A stretch of 64,000 nt of DNA, taken from the NCBI GenBank assembly GCA_030295235.1, contig AP026150.1:124001-188000 (forward strand). The letters run 5' to 3'. Made by a program: the position numbers and the translations under genes. Under the pieces are notes generated by a model, which was not told the DNA's origin, searched no databases, and saw only the letters and a program-made list of their open reading frames with translations. This DNA comes from Fistulifera solaris (lineage: Eukaryota; Bacillariophyta; Bacillariophyceae; Naviculales; Stauroneidaceae). How positions within the stretch are numbered: the first letter of the stretch is position 1; the number at the start of each line of letters is the position of its first letter. This document shows positions 11,367 through 50,006 of this stretch, in pieces.

Positions 11367-11735
11367 GTCAACGCTTGCTTCCTTTTCACGAAACAATACT
11401 GCGTCTAATAGATATATTAAAGCCTTGTATCATTTCCTTTAAATGTCTTTACACGATTGTTTTTCAATAATCAATACACGTAGACCAAAGGTCTCTCTAG
11501 CGACCCGGGTCATAGGTACGAGTCAGTCGATCGCAAGGAAAACATTTACCTGGTAGGTGCCGAACGGCTCTCTCGAAACCGCTAAGACAGATCTTTTCCG
11601 AAGTGACATCAAACTTTGCAAAACAACGACACGAGAGATCTTGACGAATAAAACGGTGCGTGAGATCCAACTCATGCAACCAATCTTAACTTTCGTTTCT
11701 ATTTTGATAAAAAAATCCTCTTCTTGAAGTCAAAA
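11367..11735. other. intergenic region, no gene seen
   Basis: Presumed 3' region of the TPR-like gene and 5' region of the DUF6604-like gene. I see no RNA gene or repeat. Confidence 0.5.
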
Positions 11736-14700
11736 ATGCCTCACAACAAAGGACACAACCAGGGCAAGAAGAACAAAGCGAACAGGGGTCGTCACAACCG
11801 ACAACCGATTTCCCGAACCCTGCCCACCGCTCCCTCCGGTGGTGGACAGTCGCTCCTTCAGCGCATTCAAAGCGCTCTTCCTACCTTTCACAGTAAATTG
11901 GCGCCAAATGATTCAATTTTTGAAAACATCGGTGGTGGATATTACGCCATGTACAAGGAAGCGACACTCCGTTTTCACAAATGGATGGCGAACCAGGCCT
12001 GTCGAGGAATGAAAATGACTGCTGTCAACGACTATCGCCGGGGAGTTGATCAAATTGTGGAATACAACGTCAAATTATACTTGAAGAAAGTAGAAAACGG
12101 GGAATTTATTGTGGCTCCACCAGATATTATGGAGAGCTTGGTATCGAGCATTCGCTTGCGAGAGCGCGTTGCGGCGAATCTCTTTGGTTCTAAAACGGGT
12201 GGCGATCAAGGCCATCAGTACATTATTGACGTGCTGCACTATTGTCGAAGCGCACTTCGTTTTGGAAATCGAGTTGCTGCTGTCTACAATGCGAAGGATG
12301 ACGAGCAAGTCCGAGTGGAGGATGCTGTGGGTGGACGATTTAATGCTTTGGCACTGGATGACGATTCGGAAGACGAAATGGATTGGGAAGATATTGACCG
12401 TGATATTAAGGATGGAAAGCTACCAAAATATGTTGGGGTACAAGTCGAAGAAGATTTCGATATCAACAAAGTCCTTTTGAAAGGCGATGATCGCTTTCAA
12501 GCGATGGCCCTTCTTTATACCATGGATGATTTGATGCAAGCCGTTCAACAGCACTACCAACTACTCAAAGATTTTATGAGAAACGTGGGAAATCATGATT
12601 CTTCGAGCTGTGTACAATTGGTGATGGAGTGTGCGGTTGTTGCGAATGCCGCCACGGAATGTGTGAATCGAGCTGAAAACGAGATGGCGATTGACCATCC
12701 TCATCTTTCGTCGTTCTACCATGTTCTTGCACTCGTGATTCTGACTGAACCGTTGGCTGATCTCAATAAGCTAATCGACAAAGCAAGGCTGAAAGCGGTT
12801 CCTCATATGGCGCTTCAGTTTTTGGCAGAGATTGTTGAGTGTTCGTTCCATAATCGTGGTCACGAGAGGATTCCCCCTATCGTCAAGCGCTTTGTTCAGA
12901 GGTCGGGTTTGGACCCACGATACGTGGACGAGACTGCGAAAGGAATTCATATGCTTACTTCTTTTGAGACCCTTTTGGAATTGGAAGAGCGCTCGAATCT
13001 GCAACAGACGGCCATAATGTCTCAAGCGGGAGTCAAACCCCACACGTGGCTCCATCCAAGTGAATACATTGGAGGTGATTGCTGCATCTTGAACACACAA
13101 AAGATTGTCCAGATGGTAATGGGTCTTCTACAAAACAATCGAAAACTTGTCGGGCGACCAGGATTTTGGGGACCGCCGTTCGATGAAAACAATAGACCGG
13201 CTCGTCGCATACGGGGAGATCTCGATGAACCTTTTGCGTCTAGTATCATACCAGAGATCTTAGAGATCTGCCGATATGCGCCTTTTCATTGTTTGCCGGA
13301 TCGATCTCATTTGATCACCGTTCTCGATCTCTTGCAGCGACATGTTAAAGGTGATCGTACGAAACCAGTGCCAATTGCTCTATCCTTTGGTCTACATACG
13401 GTTTTGATGTCGGTCTTTGTGCTTCAAGGAGAAGGCGATTTGGCCCGAATTGCCGAGTGTTCGAAGCAGTCATATAACAAATTGTTTGAACAATTGCAGA
13501 TTGCATCGGATCGAAGCAAATCGCCCGAGAACTCTCCTATTTTCTACAAGAACGTTCAGACGTTTGCCGATCTCGCGGCCTTTGCCAAGCCGGTTAGTAT
13601 TCAAACCGATGATCGTCAAACAGTGGATCCGCTTGGAGCTGAGAGACTGGCGTTCTGGAACCCGGTCATTGGTGGTGAATACCTACTGTATGCGACCTAT
13701 ATTTGCTCTATTGGTCTTGGGTCTGCAACTGTGGATTCGCTAGGTCAACTGCGCTTTGCGCTTCATTTATACAATGGACTAAGAATCCATGATCCAACCT
13801 TTAAAGTATCTCTTCTAGAGAACTCGGACGCAGTATTCCAGGGTACCAAAGCAGTTTGGGTAGGAGGAAAACCTGAGAAAGGAGCATGTTGCAAGGTCTT
13901 CTGGATGTCGTGGGGGATGAGCCCTGGTCATGCTGCACGTCAAGCGTCCGAGAAGGTAGATAGCAACGACGTCTTTTCTCTCAATTCTAGGATCAGCGCC
14001 GATGTCTTGAGGTAAGAGAACCTGTTTACTCGGATGAAATCGAAAGGCCTGCTTGCTAAATAAGTTCTGCAATGTATTTGCGCAGAGAACTGGATGAAAT
14101 CCGCCCGGAAGAATTCAGTCCCTCGTATCGACATCTCGTTCAAAATGATTTTGGGTCAAAAGACTTGGAGAAACATTACACGAACAAAAATGCAGACGAG
14201 GCAACGGCTGAAGCTAAAAAGCGCTACGGTCCATTGGTCGACCTTTTGACGAGAATCAATATCATTCGCGATGCTATGGACGACGACGAAGAAAATGTCC
14301 TTCCGGTGAATTTTACTGCACTGGGGTCTATTCTGCTGGAGTATGTGAACGCTTTGTCAGACCACATGGGATGGTCAGAAATGATTCAAGATGTTGTACG
14401 TGATAATCCAGATATTCGATTCGGTAAAACAATGGGAGGAAGTGACTTGAGGGGTTCACCGCGTCCGATCTAAACCTAAAGCACCAAGGTTTAGCCCATA
14501 TCTGGGGACATCTTCTGTCTTGTATTGATAAAGATGGCACTGGAAAATTGTTACCAGTTTTTCATGTCGACAAAGTGGCGGCATTCACCAAATTGTTCTT
14601 CGACAAGGTAGAAAACGAACGCTACATCTTCTTTGTCGAGATTGAGGAGAGTCCCATTGCAAAAAAGCGCAATCCTCTGCAAGGGACCTATCCTCTTGGG

Positions 14701-21605: not shown

Positions 21606-24600
21606 ATGCGGCAATCGTGTCTATCGTTGTCATCCTTTGTATTAGCCCTCGGCTGCTTGCTTCACTTCGTAAGCTCCGAGGTGCAAACCAATACAGGAGA
21701 AGTCGCTTTGGCGCAACAACAACTAATTTTTCTACAAAACGCTTGCCCACGAGAACTTCTCTGTCCTGGGGGAACCCGACGGCGACCGAACTTTACCTTA
21801 TGCCATCCGACGCGAAATCAAGAAATTTGCTCAGCCTTCTCGATGATCCGAAGAAACATGGGATATCGATGCGGAAAGTGTCCTCCGACGCCGCAGTGCT
21901 CCCCCTCAAAATGGCGTCGTTGCCGTGTCGACACTTCCCGAAATAGCTGGACGCCGACAAATCAGTTTGAATGCCGTTCCTCATTTGTGTATCTTGTGGA
22001 AAGTCACCAACCGCAGCCGGCAACCTGTCGCGCGTTCGTATCAAGGCTTCGACTGGGAATTGTACGGACCGGACGCCAGCTCCAACTCGGTGACGTGTGT
22101 TTCCGGCAACTGTACCATCGCGATGCCACCGACTGCCGACAATGTTCGATACGAACTGCTTACCGTGGTGGCTCGTCATGAGGATACTCCTGCGCGTTTT
22201 TTAGAACAAGCTACCTTTGGAGCTACACGGAGTGACTTATCTTCCTTCCCTGGCAACTATACACGATGGTTAAGGACTCAAATCGACAATGTGCCTCCTT
22301 CGTATCATCGTGAGTACTATCGCCGTCGCTTGAATCATCGTTTTGAACACGCCTCTCCGCAAGGAATCGTCACGCATCCGTGTCAGGTCGGCACGCGGTA
22401 CCGGCGGTACGCCTTCAGCGACAAAGATCGAAACGATCAGTTGCAAATAAGGACCGTCGGAAGCAACAAAGTATTCTTGGTAGACGGTCAGATTCGTACG
22501 GTACTTCCTGCGGAAACTACTGCAACTCTTTGGGATGAAGCCAACCGAGCGATTGCGGATGGAGTCTACACGATGTGCCGCAAAATTGACAACTACATCG
22601 GCACTGCATGGAAAATAATACATCGAGGGTCATGTACCGATGTCTTTCATACATCGCCTTCGCAAAACACTGCCGCAAATAAGAGAGTCTTGGGCGTGCC
22701 ACCCGTCTTTTTTACAAGCAATATTCCGCCTGATTTGCCAGTGTTGTCGTTGGATGGGAATGTTGTCGAATGGGATAACTTTTTGTACGCTGCGACTGAT
22801 CGACCGCAGGAATTGATGGTAGTGAAGCAAATGAATCAGCCCGTCTGTTCGAGCATCCCCGAGACAGTCACCCGCGATGTTGAAACAGTCGTCGGAATTT
22901 ACAAAGGCCGATATTATCTGCACGACAGTCGCTTTGTTCTCGAAGAAAATACTTTGCAAGCACCGTATGCGGACGGTGGCAGTACGCTTGTTCAACAATC
23001 CTTGTCGCAAACAGATGATGAACGATTTCATGTGTCCTGTGGCAATGTGGCTCCCACGATCGATAATGAACAATTCTGCCGAATGGTTCCGGTCGGACAA
23101 TTGGCAAACAACGTTTGCACTTCAGGCGACACTATCTCGACCGAAAGCATCACTTTGACTCAGGAAACTTTGGAAGAAGTCTATATGGCCGGAGGGCGTT
23201 ATTTGTATGTCGTGACGGGATTGCGTCAAGATGAGTTTTTGTTGCATTATCCTCCGTGCTCTCCTGGCACAACATCGCGGTGGCTCAAACTGCAAACATG
23301 CCCGACCACGACGACTCCACTGCAAAGCGATACGACTACCGTGTTGCGACAGCTGTTAACCAGCAGCACCGATGGGCATCCCTTTCTGAAAGATGTTCTG
23401 TTTCCTACTCTAGGATCAGTGTGCCATGCAAATGATCGGAATACGTACGACATGGTGGTTCGATTGACAAACGGCGAATGCTGGCAAAATATTCATCCTT
23501 CCAATTACCAAGTGTATGATTTCACCGATTGGGTGACAAATCATCCGGGAGGACCTGCTGCCATTGAGCAATTTTTGACGGAAAGCTTTACCCTGTTCTA
23601 CCCGAGCAACCACGAAATGATGCGATGGAATGAAAACTCACCCGTCCATTTAGTGGAAATAGGACGCTATATGGATACGATTGATGTTCAAGAAGGCAGT
23701 CCAGTGGCAGATTCGCTCTCGACGTTACTACTTCAAGACGATTTGGAAGGCTCCACTCTGCTTTGCGGTAGTCCATCGGAAGTTGCCAACGACCTCACGT
23801 TAGGCGGGAGCATGTATCGAGGAGCCTTCGACGCGCTGACAAATTACAATCGCACCACCCTCTTTGAAGACTTCGAACGTCAGCGAACGAGTGTATGGTT
23901 GGAGATGGCTCTACGCGCACCTGATACGCTCAGACAAAAGGTCGCATGGATCTTGTCACAAATTCTCGTTGTTAGTTCAGACGCGATCGAAACGTTCTAT
24001 CATACTGAACAGTTTCTTCATTACTATGACATATTTGTGAGGAACGCGTTAGGTAACTATCGAGATGTCTTAAAACAAGTGACATATAGTCCCCTGATGG
24101 GAGAAATGCTTAGGTGAGTGAGACTCGAGGTGTGGGTGCCACTACCCTTTAATAGTAGGGTCGCCTTCCGTTAGTTGCACCCCACGCCGCTGTGGGACAA
24201 ACTTCATCTCACTTATCAGCTAACATCTTGTTTCTGTCTTCGCAATGTTAGCTACCAAAATGGCCATTCTACGCAGTATGTATGGCAAACCAAACGGAGA
24301 GTGGAATATGCCGATGAGAACTTTGCTCGAGAGCTGGCCCAGCTGTTTAGCACCGGAATCGTGCCTTTGCGCTTAGACGGTAGTGTTGTACCAACTGGTT
24401 CAACGACGTATACCAATGACGATATAATGGAATATGCAAGGCTTTTTACAGGTCTGGTCCGTCAACGCCGTCGGGGGAATATAGAAGACTGGGTACAAGA
24501 AGGACGCAACCAGATCGACCCCATGCGAATCAATGTCCATGTGAAAGATATTTACCCCAAAATGGGTTTAGAGGGAAAGTACATTGGTGATGGTATTCCA

Positions 24601-27600
24601 CAATGTGTCGATTTGCCACCTCAGCACCACCTTCAGAAAGGCGCTACATATCGGTTGCTCGGAACCACGCCTAGTCCACGGTTGCTGCATCAACCTGCTT
24701 CGTGGTCGAACGATCACTCTGTCTCTAGAATACGACTGAGCCGTTCATCTCCTCTTTTTACGGCTTTGTGTCAAGTTGGTGCCAACTCATCTTGCTCATA
24801 TCCTGCCGTTGTGGTCTTGCAGCAAACGTTGCCATGCCGCGGCGAAAACTACTGTAACATTGTCCCTCGCATTCTGGAAGTCGATGCTGGCATTTATTAT
24901 GAGTACACACAGCCCACTTGCGTGCAAATGGCATTTTACAATAACGGTGTCGTGCAAATGTCCTTGTCATCAACCCATTGCGCCGATCCCCAAATGACAA
25001 ATGGCGCCGCTGCATGCTGCCGCGCTGGGAGCGATGCTGTCGACTGGAGTCGCTCTAGATTCGCGGGAGAACTACTCACACGTGATACTGCACGACAGCT
25101 TTGCCGAAATGCCGGACTCGATCTGTGCACTCGACCAAAATGCACTTGTGCTTTCAAAGAGAACAAAGTGTGCGATGACACTCTGGGATACTGGACGAAT
25201 ACTCCCTGTAGAGGATTAGCTGCGAAGATTGATGTTGAGGGTCGTGTAGCCATCGTGCACCGTACCCTTGACAATGCAGATATCTATCATTCCGTAATGG
25301 ACGACACCAAGACATTTTTCCGGGTAGACTGGAATCGGCAAGATTTTGTGAGCTCATATGCAAGCACTTGCACCCAAGCTGGTTGTGTTCGGGAATCCTC
25401 AGATAATATGTGCGTGTGTCCGGTGACTGTTGAGGAACGTGCAGTCTTTCCAGACCCCGTGAACAATCCACCCAGTAAAAATGATATTCTCGACAAACTC
25501 AAGATTGGTGCGTTTTCTCCAACGTCAGCCAAAGTTACCCTGGCAAATGGCGTCAGTTGGTATCCCAGCGAAAAGGTATTTGAATACGACGATTATACGG
25601 GTCGAAAACATTATCGAAAAAACTTGGAATCCCGTGTTAAGGTAGGAAGCAGTACCTTATGGTTTCGCAATCCTCCCCATTTCATGTCATTGACATTACC
25701 TGAAAAACGTGATGCTGTTTATGAATTGGAGGCTGGCTTGGATCATTTCTTTGTAAGTCTAATCGCTTTATCCTTGTCATAGCCCTTCGCTTGCAGCTAA
25801 CTCTCTTTGGAACACGAACTGCATGCACAGTATCATCCAAACACTGCACCATTCTTAGCTCTTCGTTTTTTGCAGCGCTTCGGCTTTTCCAACCCATCAC
25901 CCCGCTTCATCGAGTCAGTAGCCAAAGCATTTATTGCGGGTCGCTATACTGCTAGTGATGGTACTGTCTTTGGTAGCGGCTCATACGGCGACTTGAGCGC
26001 AATGGTGACATCCATCTTGTTAGATCAAGAGATTCGATCTCCAGTCTTGGACTATGACCCGACGTTCGGCTCCGTACTTGAACCCTTCGGGAAGTTCGTC
26101 AAAATTCTGCGAGCGCTAGAATGGCAAGCCGATCGAGATGATCCACATATTCGTCTCCGGGCTGATCTCCAAGACTGGATCGGACAAGAAGCTCATAGAC
26201 TGCCCAGCGTGTTTTCCTTTTTTCTTCCCGAGTATTCGCCACCCGGTCCCTTGGGGAATGCAGGAATGGTGTGCCCCGAATGTCAAGTATTGACGGGGCC
26301 GAAATCATTGGCTTTGATGAATGGATTGGCCAGTTTGATCAAGTATGGACTTGATTCTGCGTACGGCGGATTCGGCTTTGGACGTGGTGGAGATGAACAT
26401 CGTCGATCTCTAGGAAACTTTGATCAATATGCAACTGGCCGCTTAACATACGCTCCATCGACAGGTATGACGTCCGCAAACATTGTCGAGGAACTGTCAG
26501 CCTTATTAACAGCGGGGCGACTATGGAAAGAAAAGGGTCAAGAACTAGTTCAAATATATGATGAACTCATGGCCAAAACCAGTTCCCGACAAAAAGTGTT
26601 ATTTTGCTTCAGCAAATAATGATTTCTACACCAGAATTTCAAACCAATACAGTTTCTCGCCGCACCGCTAACAATGGCCGATCGGACGACGCACGAGCTC
26701 TTTCTTCTTCATCAGACTACAAGGCCGTGATTTACATACAATTGAACGGCGGATGTGATTCCTTCAACTTGTTGGTACCAAGTCAATGCTCAGGCAAAAA
26801 TGCCGCGGGTATTCCTGTCCACACGCAATATGATGAAGAGCGGGGTATGTTAGCCTTGAATGCAAGAGAGCGTTCCTTAAAAATCCAAGTGAATGCAACA
26901 AAAATGCAAAGTGGCCACAGCCCTGCAGCGAGTTTGTAATCCATGATGAAATGCGTCTGTTGAGACAGTTGTATCAAAGCGGCGAATTAATCTTTTGGCA
27001 AACACGGGGATGCTAGACTCAAGAAGCACGACACCATCTAATTACCGTTCTACACGCATGCAACTATTCGCACACAACGCCATGATCCGCGAAAATCAGG
27101 CCGTTGATCCTCGAGCACAAGCTACTGGATCTGGTGTGCTTGGACGATTGGCATCACGGCTGTCATCAAAAGGTCTATCCACGAACTCAATTTCAATTGA
27201 CAATCCTTCTCTTGTTACGGAGCCTCGACGTGGTCAAGTTCCTGCACCTTTGGTAATTAGTCGGAACGGGATTTCGATCTTGGATCGAAAGCCGTCTGGC
27301 GAAGCATCTATCAATGTGACCCAATACATGGAATCAGTCAATCGTTATAATCTGGACGAATACAACTCGTACTTTGCCCAAACCTGGTCGCAGCAGCTAT
27401 TGGATGGTGCTCGACAAGCAGTGGAATGGAAGGACTATTTGGACAGAGTAACACTCGGGAGCCATTGGCCTAGTTTATTGCCAGATTACGGCCTAAAATT
27501 CGCTGTTACGTCTAAAGTCATTGCAAGCCGAGTAGAACGCAAAGTGAACCGCGATTTTTTCTTTGTGGATTGGACTGGGTGGGACCACCACGCTGACATG

Positions 27601-28053
27601 AAAGAACGCATCCGTCCTATGTTTCGCGATCTTAATGAGGGATTGAGATGGCTAGTAGATGAATTAAAGCTGCAAGGCGCCTGGGAGGATGTAGCTATTG
27701 TAATTAGCTCCGATTTCGGTAGAACAATAACGGGCAATAGCGGACAAGGATCGGATCACTCGTGGGGCGGTAATTACTGGATTATGGGAGGTGACATTGA
27801 TGGTGGCAAGATTGTGGGCCGTTACCCGGATGATTTGACTCGTGATGGTCCGTTAAATATTGGTCGCGGTCGACTTATTCCGACGACGAGTTGGGACGCG
27901 TTGTGGAATGGGGTAGCGGAATGGATGGGTGCAACTTCTCCGGAAGACTTAGACTTTTGCCTTCCCAACCGCAATTCCGTAGACGGAGGCACTTCAAATG
28001 AATTTACCCCATTGTTAAGAGCGACCGACTTGTTCCATACTGCAGCGGCTTGA
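21606..28053 (+). CDS. giant secreted DUF1800 - cytochrome b5-like - DUF1501 fusion protein
   Basis: A signal peptide ('MRQSCLSLSSFVLALGCLLH') starts at 21606. DUF1800 begins with 'ARFLEQATFGATRSD' and continues with 'RQKVAWILSQILVVSSDAIE' and 'ADENFARELAQLFSTGI'. Within it, at 23480-23690, sits a cytochrome b5-like module with 'VYDFTDWVTNHPGG' and a second His in 'SNHEMMRW'. Introns 24114-24251 and 25753-25830 splice in phase; the second yields 'LDHFFYHPNTAPF'. DUF1501 follows: 'VIYIQLNGGCDSFNLLVP', 'DWTGWDHHADMKER' and 'VISSDFGRTITGNSG', an alkaline-phosphatase-like fold. One-base shifts lie at 26602-26605 (T run), 26921-26923 (C run) and 26993-26996 (T run). The first 300 bp need at least two more frame changes, so the N-terminus is unsure. 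Total length is about 2,070 residues. Bacteria carry DUF1800 and DUF1501 as neighbouring genes of unknown function. Confidence 0.78.
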
Positions 28054-38439: not shown

Positions 38440-40063
38440 ATGACTTCATCAGTAAACAGCATGACGGCTGCCGGCTGGGACGACCAGATGGGCAGTGATG
38501 TCGAACAGTTGTTCTTCGTGACAAGCTACAGGTAAGTTCAACTTAGGTCGTTGAGAACCTTCATCGCAAGTGAACGATCCTCTAATCAACTTTGCCGTCT
38601 TCAGTGACTTTGATCGCCTCGCCCATGGACCCCGTGGAAGCCCCGCCAAGAAACCCATCTATGTGTATCGATTCCACTCCAACGATGGGAGCCTTGTGCT
38701 TCTCAACATTCAAGGAGATGCTAGTCAAGTTGTGAACCCAGCTTTTTCACGCTATCACCCTCGTCTCAATGTCGTTTACACCTGCACGGAAGATATCGAA
38801 AACAACGGCAAGATCTTTGCGTACCAGGTCGGAGAACACGGTGAGTTGACGCAAATGGGCGAGCCTGTGGACGCCGGTGGAACCAGCACTTGTTATCTTA
38901 CCATCGATAAGGCTTGCAAGCATATGCTCTGCGTCAATTACTGGAATAGTACTCTATGCGTTATTCCGCTCGACCCCGAAACAGGTGCCTTCACAGGCCC
39001 CATTCAAAGCATGTACGATCCCAAGGGAGGTAAAGAAATGGTAGCTTGTGGACGCGTCAAGGGAGGTGTCAATCACTCAAACAATGATGGATCTACAATC
39101 CGAATGCGCCAAGCGGATCCGCACTCACATGCCCTTGTTCTTGACCCATTTGTCGGATGCGTTGCTTACGTTCCTGACCTGGGAAAGGATTTGGTTCGTG
39201 AATTCTTTTATGACCCTGTCTGGGGAAACATTGAGCTGGAGTTGAATGTATTGCCTTCGGGAATGTGCACTGGTATGCCCGATGGTCCTCGTTACCTGGA
39301 ATTTCATCCCCGATACCCCATTTGCTACGTTATCAACGAATTGAGCTCCACCGTGGCCGTGTTTGAGGTCGATCGACGTTTGTTGCATGAGTTGAAAGAG
39401 GCTTCCTCCCGCGGCGAGGACATGTCGAAATTCAAAGGTCGATCATCGCTTCGACTCATCCAGTCTATCAAGACGCTTCCCTCTGCATTTCCTACGGACA
39501 TGAACACTTGCGGCCGTATCTGCGTGCATAAGAGTGGTCGTTTCGTTGTCGTCAGTAACCGCGGACACCAGTCGATCGCGATCTTCCGGGTGAAAACAAA
39601 AGCGCCGAATACGGGCGAATTGAGTACGGTGGGATACTTCCACACGCGCGGCGAAACGCCTCGGCACTTTCAGTTTGATGCCAGTGGCCAGTATCTGTTG
39701 GTGGCCAACCAAGATACGGACTCGTTGACCGTGTTCCACTTCAACTTAAGTAGTGGAGAAATCCGCTACACGGGCAATGAATACCGTGTTCCTTCTCCCA
39801 ATTTTGTTTGCTGCTGCCCCACGTACTCTGACAGCGAACCAGAGGTCGTAGTCAACACATCCTCTGCCATGAACAAGCAAATCTCTGGGATCAGCGCCGA
39901 TTTGAGCGATTCGGAGAGCTCCTTTGTCTCGAAAGGACAAGACGATAGTAAGAACTTGGTGCAAGCCTTGGAAAATGCGCAACGTGAAATAGCGTACTTG
40001 AAGCAGCAGTTGTTGATGCAACAAGACCGAGCCATCATGGATGTGAACACGATCATCAATTAG
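38440..40063 (+). CDS. lactonase-type (6-phosphogluconolactonase-like) seven-bladed beta-propeller protein
   Basis: Exon 1 (38440-38531) codes 'MTSSVNSMTAAGWDDQMGSD' and ends 'FFVTSY'. The 73-nt intron 38532-38604 gives 'SYSDFDRLAHGPRG'. The body shows lactonase (YbhE/Pgl) blade motifs: 'RYHPRLNVVYTCTED', 'GRVKGGVNHSNNDG', 'HSHALVLDPFVGCVAYVPDL' (the typical H-x-D pair), 'RYLEFHPRYPICYVINELSS', 'VVVSNRGHQSIAIFRV' and 'TPRHFQFDASGQYLLVANQD'. A C-terminal coiled coil ('ALENAQREIAYLKQQLLMQQ') is an unusual addition. Probably cytosolic. The substrate is unproven; a sugar lactone is the family default. Confidence 0.8.
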
Positions 40064-46943: not shown

Positions 46944-47510
46944 ATGTATGCTGCGCGGTAGAGAATCCACTTCGTTTGGATTCAGGCAGAGTGTAGATAT
47001 TGCATGGTTTCAATATTTTTTGTAATTAGTTGATAGACCAATTAGAGTCATATCTTTTCAATAAATTTGATTGATGATCACATGCACCGCAAAGGACCGT
47101 CCGTTTGATGTGTGACGATAGTAATTGACGTACCGGTACCGGTACCGAATGGAGCCCAGTCAAGAGTCCCGCGTCTTCCACACACACTACTTTATTCTAT
47201 TAGTCACGGTACTCAGTGACTGTTACCGTAACAGTAGTAGTTTTTGAGGTGGTACGAGGAATGAATGACCGCAAAGAACGAACCAAAATGAATGACTCTT
47301 TTGTTGGGGCGGAAAAAAAAAACCGCGTTTTCCATTGAAATAAAAACAAGGTCTGTTAATCCTCTTGCTTATTGAGAAATCTCAAGAGGGAGAACAAAAT
47401 AGGGAGCGACAACATACTTGAACTGAAAACGCAAAGCAATCACACGTGCAAAGCAGAAAAAAGGGAGCTATTTGTTAGAAAAAAGCGCTATTTTCGAAGA
47501 ACATCAAACG
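46944..47510. other. intergenic region, no gene seen
   Basis: Contains 'taccggtaccggtaccg' near 47132 and a purine-rich leader before the LRR gene; no gene. Confidence 0.45.
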
Positions 47511-50006
47511 ATGCGCCCTGAGCAACCCATCTCGAATTTAAACGATCTGAAAGGATCGCAAGACAACGACGACGACATCGTGTACCGTCCCTCCTTTCTA
47601 GCCGATATCCCGTTACCACCGCCTTTACCGAACGATGAATCTGAAGCCGCACATGATCAATTACCGAACATCGAAGAATACAAAGCACAAGTTGGTCCTA
47701 CTTCCACCGACAACAATCGCTGTCTACGAATTTGTCTGATTACGTCTCTGTTTGTTGTCGCCATCGTTGTCTCCTTGACCGTCGGATTGGTTGTCGGAAT
47801 CGAAGAAGGAATTACGTTGGAAGAAGACACGATCGAACGTACCCCCACCACACCCGTGGCTTCCCCTATGAAACCACCAGTCGCATCACCCGTCGCTCCG
47901 CCCGTCGCAGATCTTCCCACCTTGCATCCGGATGTCGCGAACCGTAAATACGAAATGGAAGAAATAGCCTTGGCGGAAGGATGGTCCGATTTGTATTCCT
48001 TGTCGACACCCGGGACGCCCCAGAATCGAGCCTGTACTTTTATCGCGGAAGACGATCGCCAATTGCCCATTGAACCTACGCTCGAATTGAAAGAACGCTA
48101 CGCACTGGCCGTCTTGTATTATGCGTGGAATGGCGATCAATGGCGAGACAATTTGTTTTGGATGCAGTACAATCATCATTGTGATTGGATGGCGTCCTTG
48201 CAAGACGATGCGGGGCAGCCCGTATCCGTGGGAGTGATTTGTGACATGGATCAAAGCGTGACTTCGCTGTATTTGGCGGGCAATGAAATGCGAGGTACGA
48301 TTCCTCGGGAAATTAGACTCCTACGGAACTTGTTTGTTCTGGATCTGTCAAGTGCCCAGTATTTGGAATCGGGGGAAGATGGGATTCCGTGGCAAGACAT
48401 GGCGCAACTCACGAAACTCCAGACACTCAATTTGGCGAACAACAACTTTACCGGAATGATTGACCCACGATTGAATGCACTGAAAACACTGACTACCTTA
48501 AATTTGTCCAACAACCGGTTCTACGGCATCATCCCGGCGGCGATTGCGGCGAATTTGCGAGAATTGTCGATTTTGAATTTGGAATACAACCAATTGGGGG
48601 GTACACTGGATTCATTGCAAGACTGTGTCGCAGTAGCCATTCTGTTGGGAGGAAATAACTTGACAGGAACTCTCAAAAATGAAATCTATTCTTCCTGGCC
48701 GCGGTTGGAAACGTTGGATTTGTCGGACAACCAATTGGAAGGGGATTTGCCCGCAGGTCTGTTTGCCATGGAAACACTCACGGTTGTTGATCTGCACGGC
48801 AACCAGTTTTCGGGTCCGCTGCCTGATGTCATTTCGACCAACTCGCAAATTCGATTTTTGGCATTGCAAGAGAATCAGTTGTCGGGAAGCATTGGAGACA
48901 AGTTACGGTATATGACCAAATTGGAACATCTCGATTTATCAAACAACGCATTGACCGGCCCGCTTCCAGATGACTTTTCTATAATGTCGGACTTACGGTA
49001 CTTGTTCATGGCGTTCAATGGCCAGTTCACACCGGGTCCGATTCCCGCCTCGTACGGTAGTATGATGAATTTGGTGGATCTGTCCTTGCAACAAACTAAT
49101 CGCAACGGAACGATCCCCACGGAATTGGGACAGCTGACCGCGTTACAGCTTTTGGATTTGGCCGACAACGATTTGAGCGGCGCGATTCCGAGTGAATTCG
49201 GTACCATGGAAAAGTTACAATTCATACTGCTCAAAGACAACATGCTTACAGGATCACTTCCGGCAAGTCTGTTGGAATTGACCCGACTGGCGATCTTGGT
49301 CATTAACGATAATTCGTTCTTCGGAGCAACCAATGAGCTCTGCTTAGAAGGTGGTCAATTCGCCATTGAAACGATGGACGTCATCGTCTCGGATTGCGGT
49401 GACTTGGCGTGCGCATGCTGTGTCTGCTGCAATACTGCCGAAGGCAATCGGACGTCCGAGTGCGTCCTTTCGGTCTGGTTCAATGACGTAGATCCCGTCT
49501 ATTCTCCATACTATCGGTACCAGAGAGGATTCTATGCCTTTCAACAAACCGAAGTGGAGTACCCTTCTTTCGAAGAAGAAGTAGGAGAAGATCTTATCCT
49601 ATGGATTGATGATCCAGCCGCTCCTATTGATATTGATGGAGACGGGATCGTCAATGTGGGAGATTCCGATGCCGATGGGGATGGTATTGCGAATGAAGCC
49701 GACGGTGATAAAGATGGAGATGAAACTCCCGATTTTCAGGATGAGTTCGACAGCAATCCATTAGAGACTGTGGACAACGATGGTGATGGGGTTGGTGACA
49801 ACGCGGATAGTGACGCGACCGATGCAACGGTGGGCGACTCGGACGGCGACGGAATTGGAGACAATGCCGATGGGGCGCCAGACGACAGTGACATGGGCGA
49901 CACGGACGGTGACGGTGTTGGAGACAACGCAGACGAATTCCCCGATGACCCCAACCAATACGATACCGATCCTGGTGATGACGCCGGCGGTATACGAAAA
50001 CACTAA
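47511..50006 (+). CDS. LRR membrane protein with thrombospondin type 3-like Ca-binding tail
   Basis: The ATG at 47511 gives an 831-residue protein without a signal peptide. An acidic cytosolic N-terminus of about 70 residues with 'IPLPPPLPNDES' leads to a membrane anchor ('ICLITSLFVVAIVVSLTVGL'). A Thr/Pro linker and an N-terminal LRR cap ('ALAVLYYAWNGDQWRDN') follow. About twelve plant-type LRRs come next, such as 'LQTLNLANNNFTGMIDP' and 'LETLDLSDNQLEGDLPAGLF'. After a Cys cluster ('CGDLACACCVCCN'), the last 120 residues are repeated 'DSDGDGIGDNADG'-type units, the calcium-binding pattern of thrombospondin type 3 repeats. Type II orientation puts LRRs and tail outside the cell. Likely recognition or adhesion; the ligand is unknown. 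Confidence 0.78.
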   Translation: MRPEQPISNLNDLKGSQDNDDDIVYRPSFLADIPLPPPLPNDESEAAHDQLPNIEEYKAQVGPTSTDNNRCLRICLITSLFVVAIVVSLTVGLVVGIEEGITLEEDTIERTPTTPVASPMKPPVASPVAPPVADLPTLHPDVANRKYEMEEIALAEGWSDLYSLSTPGTPQNRACTFIAEDDRQLPIEPTLELKERYALAVLYYAWNGDQWRDNLFWMQYNHHCDWMASLQDDAGQPVSVGVICDMDQSVTSLYLAGNEMRGTIPREIRLLRNLFVLDLSSAQYLESGEDGIPWQDMAQLTKLQTLNLANNNFTGMIDPRLNALKTLTTLNLSNNRFYGIIPAAIAANLRELSILNLEYNQLGGTLDSLQDCVAVAILLGGNNLTGTLKNEIYSSWPRLETLDLSDNQLEGDLPAGLFAMETLTVVDLHGNQFSGPLPDVISTNSQIRFLALQENQLSGSIGDKLRYMTKLEHLDLSNNALTGPLPDDFSIMSDLRYLFMAFNGQFTPGPIPASYGSMMNLVDLSLQQTNRNGTIPTELGQLTALQLLDLADNDLSGAIPSEFGTMEKLQFILLKDNMLTGSLPASLLELTRLAILVINDNSFFGATNELCLEGGQFAIETMDVIVSDCGDLACACCVCCNTAEGNRTSECVLSVWFNDVDPVYSPYYRYQRGFYAFQQTEVEYPSFEEEVGEDLILWIDDPAAPIDIDGDGIVNVGDSDADGDGIANEADGDKDGDETPDFQDEFDSNPLETVDNDGDGVGDNADSDATDATVGDSDGDGIGDNADGAPDDSDMGDTDGDGVGDNADEFPDDPNQYDTDPGDDAGGIRKH

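Follow-up and report, generated by a model that had tools for sequence, protein, structure and literature searches.

Does a protein family without an assigned function carry a heme domain inside one of its defining domains? The question is raised by a gene of the diatom Fistulifera solaris that lies in a 64,000-nucleotide stretch of contig AP026150.1 (assembly GCA_030295235.1, positions 124,001 to 188,000; hereafter the window, to which all coordinates refer). A preliminary description of this DNA had placed a cytochrome b5-like module within a DUF1800 domain. DUF1800 and DUF1501, the domains that form the body of the encoded protein, both have names that mark them in Pfam as lacking a known function, and they are rarely mentioned in the literature searched. 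The reading favored here, with a probability of about 0.62, is that a divergent b5-like domain occupies one site within the DUF1800 part of a DUF1800–DUF1501 fusion protein, itself probably secreted, and would there hold heme through two histidines and serve electron transfer. The module-bearing open frame spans 21847–24114 (756 codons), with the following central features.

23386..23691, forward strand: cytochrome b5-like module (Pfam, PDB profile search, hhalign, and AlphaFold2 (AF2) model)
23542..23544, forward strand: first candidate heme histidine (HPGG), from database rows
23611..23613, forward strand: second candidate heme histidine (HEMMRW), 23 residues past the first

The module is related in sequence to cytochrome b5, as the preliminary description had proposed from stretches that lie in frame at 23512–23676. 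The 100-residue module alone scores 26.8 bits (E 5.4e-6) against the Pfam family Cyt-b5 (PF00173), above the family cut-off of 23.7 bits, and 130 residues around it score 26.1 bits. In a scan of the genome (51.7 Mb assembly, 61 contigs), the module site is one of 45 Cyt-b5 matches, with 26.7 bits and an E of 2.4e-4 for this one genome. The genome contains 18 DUF1501 matches, every one adjoining DUF1800 (loci L029–L046), and the module is present in 16 of these 18 fusion genes. Fourteen of the 16 module copies were tested singly against Pfam, the other two being split by frame breaks; Cyt-b5 is matched by all 14 and is the only Pfam family to appear at E ≤ 0.1. A profile built from 14 gene copies retrieves 48 PDB sequences at E ≤ 1, with cytochrome b5 at the top (1m2i, E 1.7e-4); by name, the others are cytochrome b5, cytochrome b2/lactate dehydrogenase (flavocytochrome b2), sulfite oxidase, and the fatty acid hydroxylase SCS7. 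An hhalign comparison of the module with six canonical b5 domains from this genome gives a probability of 90.8% across 29 columns, all in the first half. By these comparisons, the Cyt-b5 match is well above chance.

Both candidate ligands are conserved, including the second histidine to which the preliminary description had drawn attention. The two are kept in all 16 module-bearing copies of the genome, one of which, L031, reads HAGG in place of HPGG. With counts that take only the rows covering the residue in question, the first protein search (97 proteins) and the gene copies together retain the first histidine in 44 of 44 rows and the second in 43 of 44, the exception being P0007. A wider profile search scored 7994 candidates and gave 4608 matches; the best 120 of these were taken, and 109 of them were new. 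Over the module rows of both protein searches (n = 110), the first histidine is kept in 106/107, the second in 102/109, and both in 99/106. A cysteine at 23422 is kept in 100 of 100 rows. The histidines are separated by 23 residues in the window gene and by 24, the spacing of the heme histidines in cytochrome b5, in most gene copies; over 106 rows the separation ranges from 16 to 45, with 92 rows between 22 and 33. On this spacing, together with a global alignment of low probability, the second histidine is provisionally equated with the b5 ligand. In the mechanism that we propose, the two histidines would most likely hold a b-type heme, and the module would probably act, on the cell surface or within the secretory pathway, as a one-electron carrier that exchanges electrons with either a partner or an active site in its own protein. 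Heme binding is, judged from sequence, quite likely; that the module serves electron transfer is a closer matter, which we place slightly below even odds.

Several observations weigh against this assignment. Scored as a whole, the 756-residue frame reaches 23.4 bits for Cyt-b5, slightly under the cut-off of 23.7. The Pfam match covers approximately half of the profile (positions 12–45 of 74), the hhalign and PDB alignments are confined to the first half, the best PDB row spanning profile positions 36–61, and a forced global hhalign alignment, in which the second histidine pairs with that of b5, has a probability of 16.5%. The AGxDATxxF segment that usually precedes the second histidine in classical cytochrome b5, and that is partly visible in canonical b5 of the same genome, is missing from the module, which has a strand-like TLxFP stretch instead; the arrangement of classical microsomal-type cytochrome b5, with AGxDATxxF between the histidines, is thus not found. 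The second histidine is missing in seven of 109 rows (P0007, P0098, P0121, P0153, P0155, P0160, and P0189), and its conservation is equalled by that of a third histidine (23494), present in 99 of 103. A separate model of the module, with a predicted local distance difference test score (pLDDT) of 75.6, had no b5 among the PDB matches listed, and the full-length model, in a fold search, gave mostly matches to its Ig-like domain, with no b5 among those listed. In favor of the assignment, a 737-residue AF2 model has block mean pLDDT values of 86–96 over residues 451–590, which hold most of the module, and then 78. The predicted elements run in the order of strands at CWQNI and QVYD, helix, HPGG, helix, short strand, second histidine, helix, and strand; this is the order expected of b5, save that b5 usually has a helix and not a short strand before the second histidine, so that the order of elements fits in part. 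Because AGxDATxxF is replaced by TLxFP, the module is classed by its sequence as a divergent b5-like domain and not as a classical cytochrome b5.

Elsewhere in the genome, Cyt-b5 matches are observed directly beside chitin synthase at L047 and L048 (contig C4) and at L049 (C13). The first two bear on an alternative in which the module has a b5-like fold without heme and binds a lipid, a sterol, or a partner protein, comparable to MAPR proteins or to the b5-like domain of chitin synthase. L047 and L048 keep HPGG and FP with no second histidine visible by eye, L048 is among the better matches to the module profile (24.5 bits; best 26.5), and the second half of the module is divergent, all of which would suit such a fold. 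However, the two histidines rank with the most strongly conserved positions of the module, whereas MAPR proteins (heme/steroid) lack the two axial histidines, and we consider the alternative unlikely; the specific case of a MAPR type without heme ligands is rejected on the conservation of both histidines. The third histidine raises another possibility, that of a metal or structural site composed of three conserved histidines in place of heme. Some canonical b5 proteins also have a histidine at this position, however, and the other two histidines lie at or near the b5 ligand positions, which makes a three-histidine site quite improbable. A divergent, heme-holding b5-like domain remains the preferred reading.

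The position of the module within DUF1800 is defined by its flanks. DUF1800 had been described on both sides of the module, and this stands, with Pfam recognizing the core at 23869–24102 after the module, whereas the piece before it, at ~22162–22341, is placed by alignment only, often weakly, and has no Pfam match of its own. A set of 65 bacterial-type DUF1800 proteins was taken from the first search (rows P0032–P0045 and P0047–P0097; a grouping assigned here, in which some rows bear bacterial names). Both flanks align in 37 of the 65 at E ≤ 10, with N-terminal alignments that are in many cases weak (E up to 9). Between the aligned flanks are 467–551 residues in the window protein versus 6–80 in these bacterial-type relatives (two overlap), and the module sits within this first long DUF1800 insertion. 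The module profile matches none of the 65. Three of these proteins were considered as carriers and set aside: the alignment of P0041 spans query residues 588, inside the module, to 755 and is read, with no module match, as a misaligned DUF1800 start, and the HPGG of P0044 and P0053 occurs ~165–170 residues past the DUF1800 core motif, a different place.

The module is also cleanly absent from some close relatives. In the pair L043/L044, ~30 residues stand in place of ~255 residues of the window protein. Among the 109 new proteins from the best 120 of the 4608 matches, the module is present, at least partly, in 82, and 13 of the 27 without a module match run, by eye, from FLNE...C directly to VCGSPxEV (examples of clean absence are P0148, P0161, P0178, P0187, P0196, and P0204); the other 14 start within or after the module or cannot be judged. 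P0029, P0030, P0031, and P0046 of the first search likewise appear, by eye, cleanly without it. Because it is cleanly absent in two of the 18 copies and in several database relatives, the module is, by sequence comparison, optional, having been either gained or lost at a single site. The redox role that the preliminary description had suggested for DUF1800 cannot be transferred to the family as a whole, since the module is absent from 65/65 bacterial-type proteins and from some eukaryote-type proteins, including 2/18 here. Searches with one degenerate pattern found no module relative in prokaryote genomes (9 pattern stretches) or in viral contigs (31 pattern stretches), both weak negatives, and a plasmid search with 901 bases gave no match.

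Dispensability of this kind would be expected of a passive spacer without a ligand, but the module is under purifying selection. By simple Nei–Gojobori counts, the ratio of nonsynonymous to synonymous substitution rates (dN/dS) for the module is 0.041 for the window gene versus its homoeolog, six further pairs give 0.045–0.223, and the histidines are conserved although the length of the loop varies. A passive spacer is accordingly a highly improbable explanation, and a ligand-bearing b5-like domain is preferred.

The gene family is distributed over contigs C36 and C37 (seven genes each), C9/C10, and C5/C6, with 14 of the 18 genes near the start of the contig pair C36/C37 (first ~162 kb); in L029 and L045, the module is in two pieces. 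The 18 genes are read as nine homoeologous pairs, an arrangement that fits the description of Fistulifera as allopolyploid in a passage of PMC12159174.

Homologues in other diatoms, which the preliminary description had called for, were found: Fragilaria crotonensis (P0112 and P0129) and Thalassiosira sp. (P0114) have at least part of the module, as do, outside the listed diatoms, Triparma laevis (P0139) and Prorocentrum cordatum (P0164, P0170, and P0203). The MMETSP record P0204, with an organism name beginning 'Cosci', is without it. The module is in frame in eukaryote transcript records, for example P0125 (MMETSP) and P0179 (EukProt). PF08811 and PF00173, the Pfam families of DUF1800 and Cyt-b5, are precomputed together on seven listed proteins (P0011, P0122, P0124, P0127, P0164, P0170, and P0179), and the domain pair is therefore already visible to automatic annotation; the automatic UniRef name of P0203 begins 'Cytochrome b5 heme-binding domain-'. 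No description of a b5-like module in a DUF1800–DUF1501 fusion was found in the literature searched. P0135, P0165, and P0189 are labelled 'cullin-associated NEDD8-dissociated protein 1' and are probably misnamed. As given in PMC7563939, PF08811 belongs to the domains for which upregulated Emiliania huxleyi genes are enriched (2 of 10).

The remaining features of the gene are arranged around the module as follows.

21606..21680, forward strand: probable start codon and signal peptide (ATG then a hydrophobic stretch, read from the sequence)
21958..22167, forward strand: predicted Ig-like beta domain near the N-terminus
22162..22341 (frame residues ~106–165), forward strand: DUF1800 N-terminal piece, from often weak alignment to the start of bacterial-type DUF1800 proteins; helices in the model
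22342..23868, forward strand: long insertion in DUF1800, from flank alignments to bacterial-type proteins
23869..24102 (frame residues 675–752), forward strand: DUF1800 core, first exon, profile 65–141 (Pfam E 3.1e-11)
24114..24251, forward strand: proposed intron 1 (GTGAGT...TAG), from splice signals by eye and continuity with homologues
24301..24552, forward strand: DUF1800 middle part, profile 154–215 (Pfam E 4.2e-11)
24553..25752, forward strand: second long DUF1800 insertion, cysteine-rich, from the gap between profile positions 215 and 238 and the cysteines in the translation
25753..25830, forward strand: proposed intron 2 (GTAAGT...CACAG), from splice signals by eye and homologues
25834..26586, forward strand: DUF1800 last part, profile 238–402 (Pfam E 2.5e-11)
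26592..28053, forward strand: C-terminal DUF1501 (Pfam E 2e-27 on frame 26950–28050)

DUF1800 (PF08811) is recognized on three consecutive exon-like frames with 43.5, 43.1, and 43.9 bits (cut-off 26.1), and DUF1501 (PF07394) with 96.8 bits (cut-off 27). The presence of DUF1501 downstream in the same gene had been missed in the preliminary description. No Pfam match of its own is found for the second DUF1800 insertion (24553–25752). Secretion of the window protein is likely because a hydrophobic stretch, with a mean hydrophobicity of 2.9 over nine residues, follows the first ATG at 21606; the homoeolog L029 starts likewise. This judgement comes from a crude hydrophobicity test after the ATG, and in the 17 other copies the same crude test of start and hydrophobic stretch was positive in nine (L042 marginally) and negative in eight. 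The claim of likely secretion is confined to the window gene and is not extended to the whole family. A frame shift near 21903–21916 is present in both homoeologs, the window gene and L029, and represents an intron or a base error. Further frame shifts are seen by eye near 26590, 26905, and 26990, these three at or near short single-base runs, and comparable frame breaks are present in other gene copies; such breaks may be either assembly errors or true damage.

The domains hint at what the body of the protein may act on. DUF1501 motifs, which we take to be of the alkaline-phosphatase type, were found by pattern in 14 of the 18 copies; the sequence retrieved for the remaining four (L030, L031, L033, and L036) breaks off early. 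Because DUF1501 retains these motifs, the DUF1800–DUF1501 body may be a metal-dependent hydrolase. Members of the family have additional PF16990, PF01822, and PF00754 domains, presumably CBM35, WSC, and F5/8C, respectively, which are carbohydrate- or surface-binding types. Bacterial operons that combine chitin synthase, DUF1800, and DUF1501 genes are described in an excerpt of PMC5122149. Together, the extra surface or carbohydrate domains and the bacterial chitin synthase operons offer two hints of a polysaccharide role. Chitin synthase itself was considered as a neighbor of this gene family and rejected, as its 17 genome matches are on C3, C4, C13, C14, C21, and C22, with none on C36/C37, C9/C10, or C5/C6. 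A wider scenario, which is speculative and which we regard as unlikely in its full form, is that algae such as diatoms and dinoflagellates have a family of secreted enzymes in which a body from bacterial polysaccharide operons was fused and gained a b5 heme relay, for extracellular redox chemistry on cell-wall or mucilage polysaccharide.

Ten of the 52 open frames of at least 170 codons in the window, a set that includes the gene's own, were scanned as neighbors; three of the 10 match a family, and none explains the gene. A seven-bladed lactonase-type propeller protein (PF10282) and a leucine-rich repeat protein are observed at 38555–40060 and 47427–50003, respectively, and a DUF6604 match at 11664–14012.

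A heme module, if real, would provide a spectroscopic handle by which the function of DUF1800–DUF1501 proteins becomes testable, and the first handle on the role of probably secreted algal proteins of unknown function. Its presence in 16 and absence in two of the 18 copies of one genome furnishes a built-in comparison.

The protein is reminiscent of several known systems. Bacterial DUF1800 (PF08811) shares with it the core motifs, found here on three exon-like frames, and the N-terminal piece before the insertion; in contrast, DUF1800 of the diatom protein is interrupted by two long insertions, one of them carrying the b5-like module, and DUF1501 follows within that gene. Its DUF1501 resembles bacterial DUF1501 (PF07394) in the conserved acidic and histidine motifs and in adjoining DUF1800, as in the bacterial operons of the PMC5122149 excerpt, but here it shares a gene, and apparently a polypeptide chain, with DUF1800; the two Pfam domains occur together in single records such as P0135 and P0146. 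The b5-like domain linked to chitin synthase has the HPGG block and the FP motif in common with the module and differs in the second histidine, which L047 and L048 do not show. The closest comparison is with the Cyt-b5 domain (PF00173) itself, which the module resembles in the VYDxT...HPGG block, the second histidine, and the order of most strands and helices. Unlike that domain, the module lacks AGxDATxxF, has extra conserved cysteines, and lies inside DUF1800, in a protein that is probably secreted.
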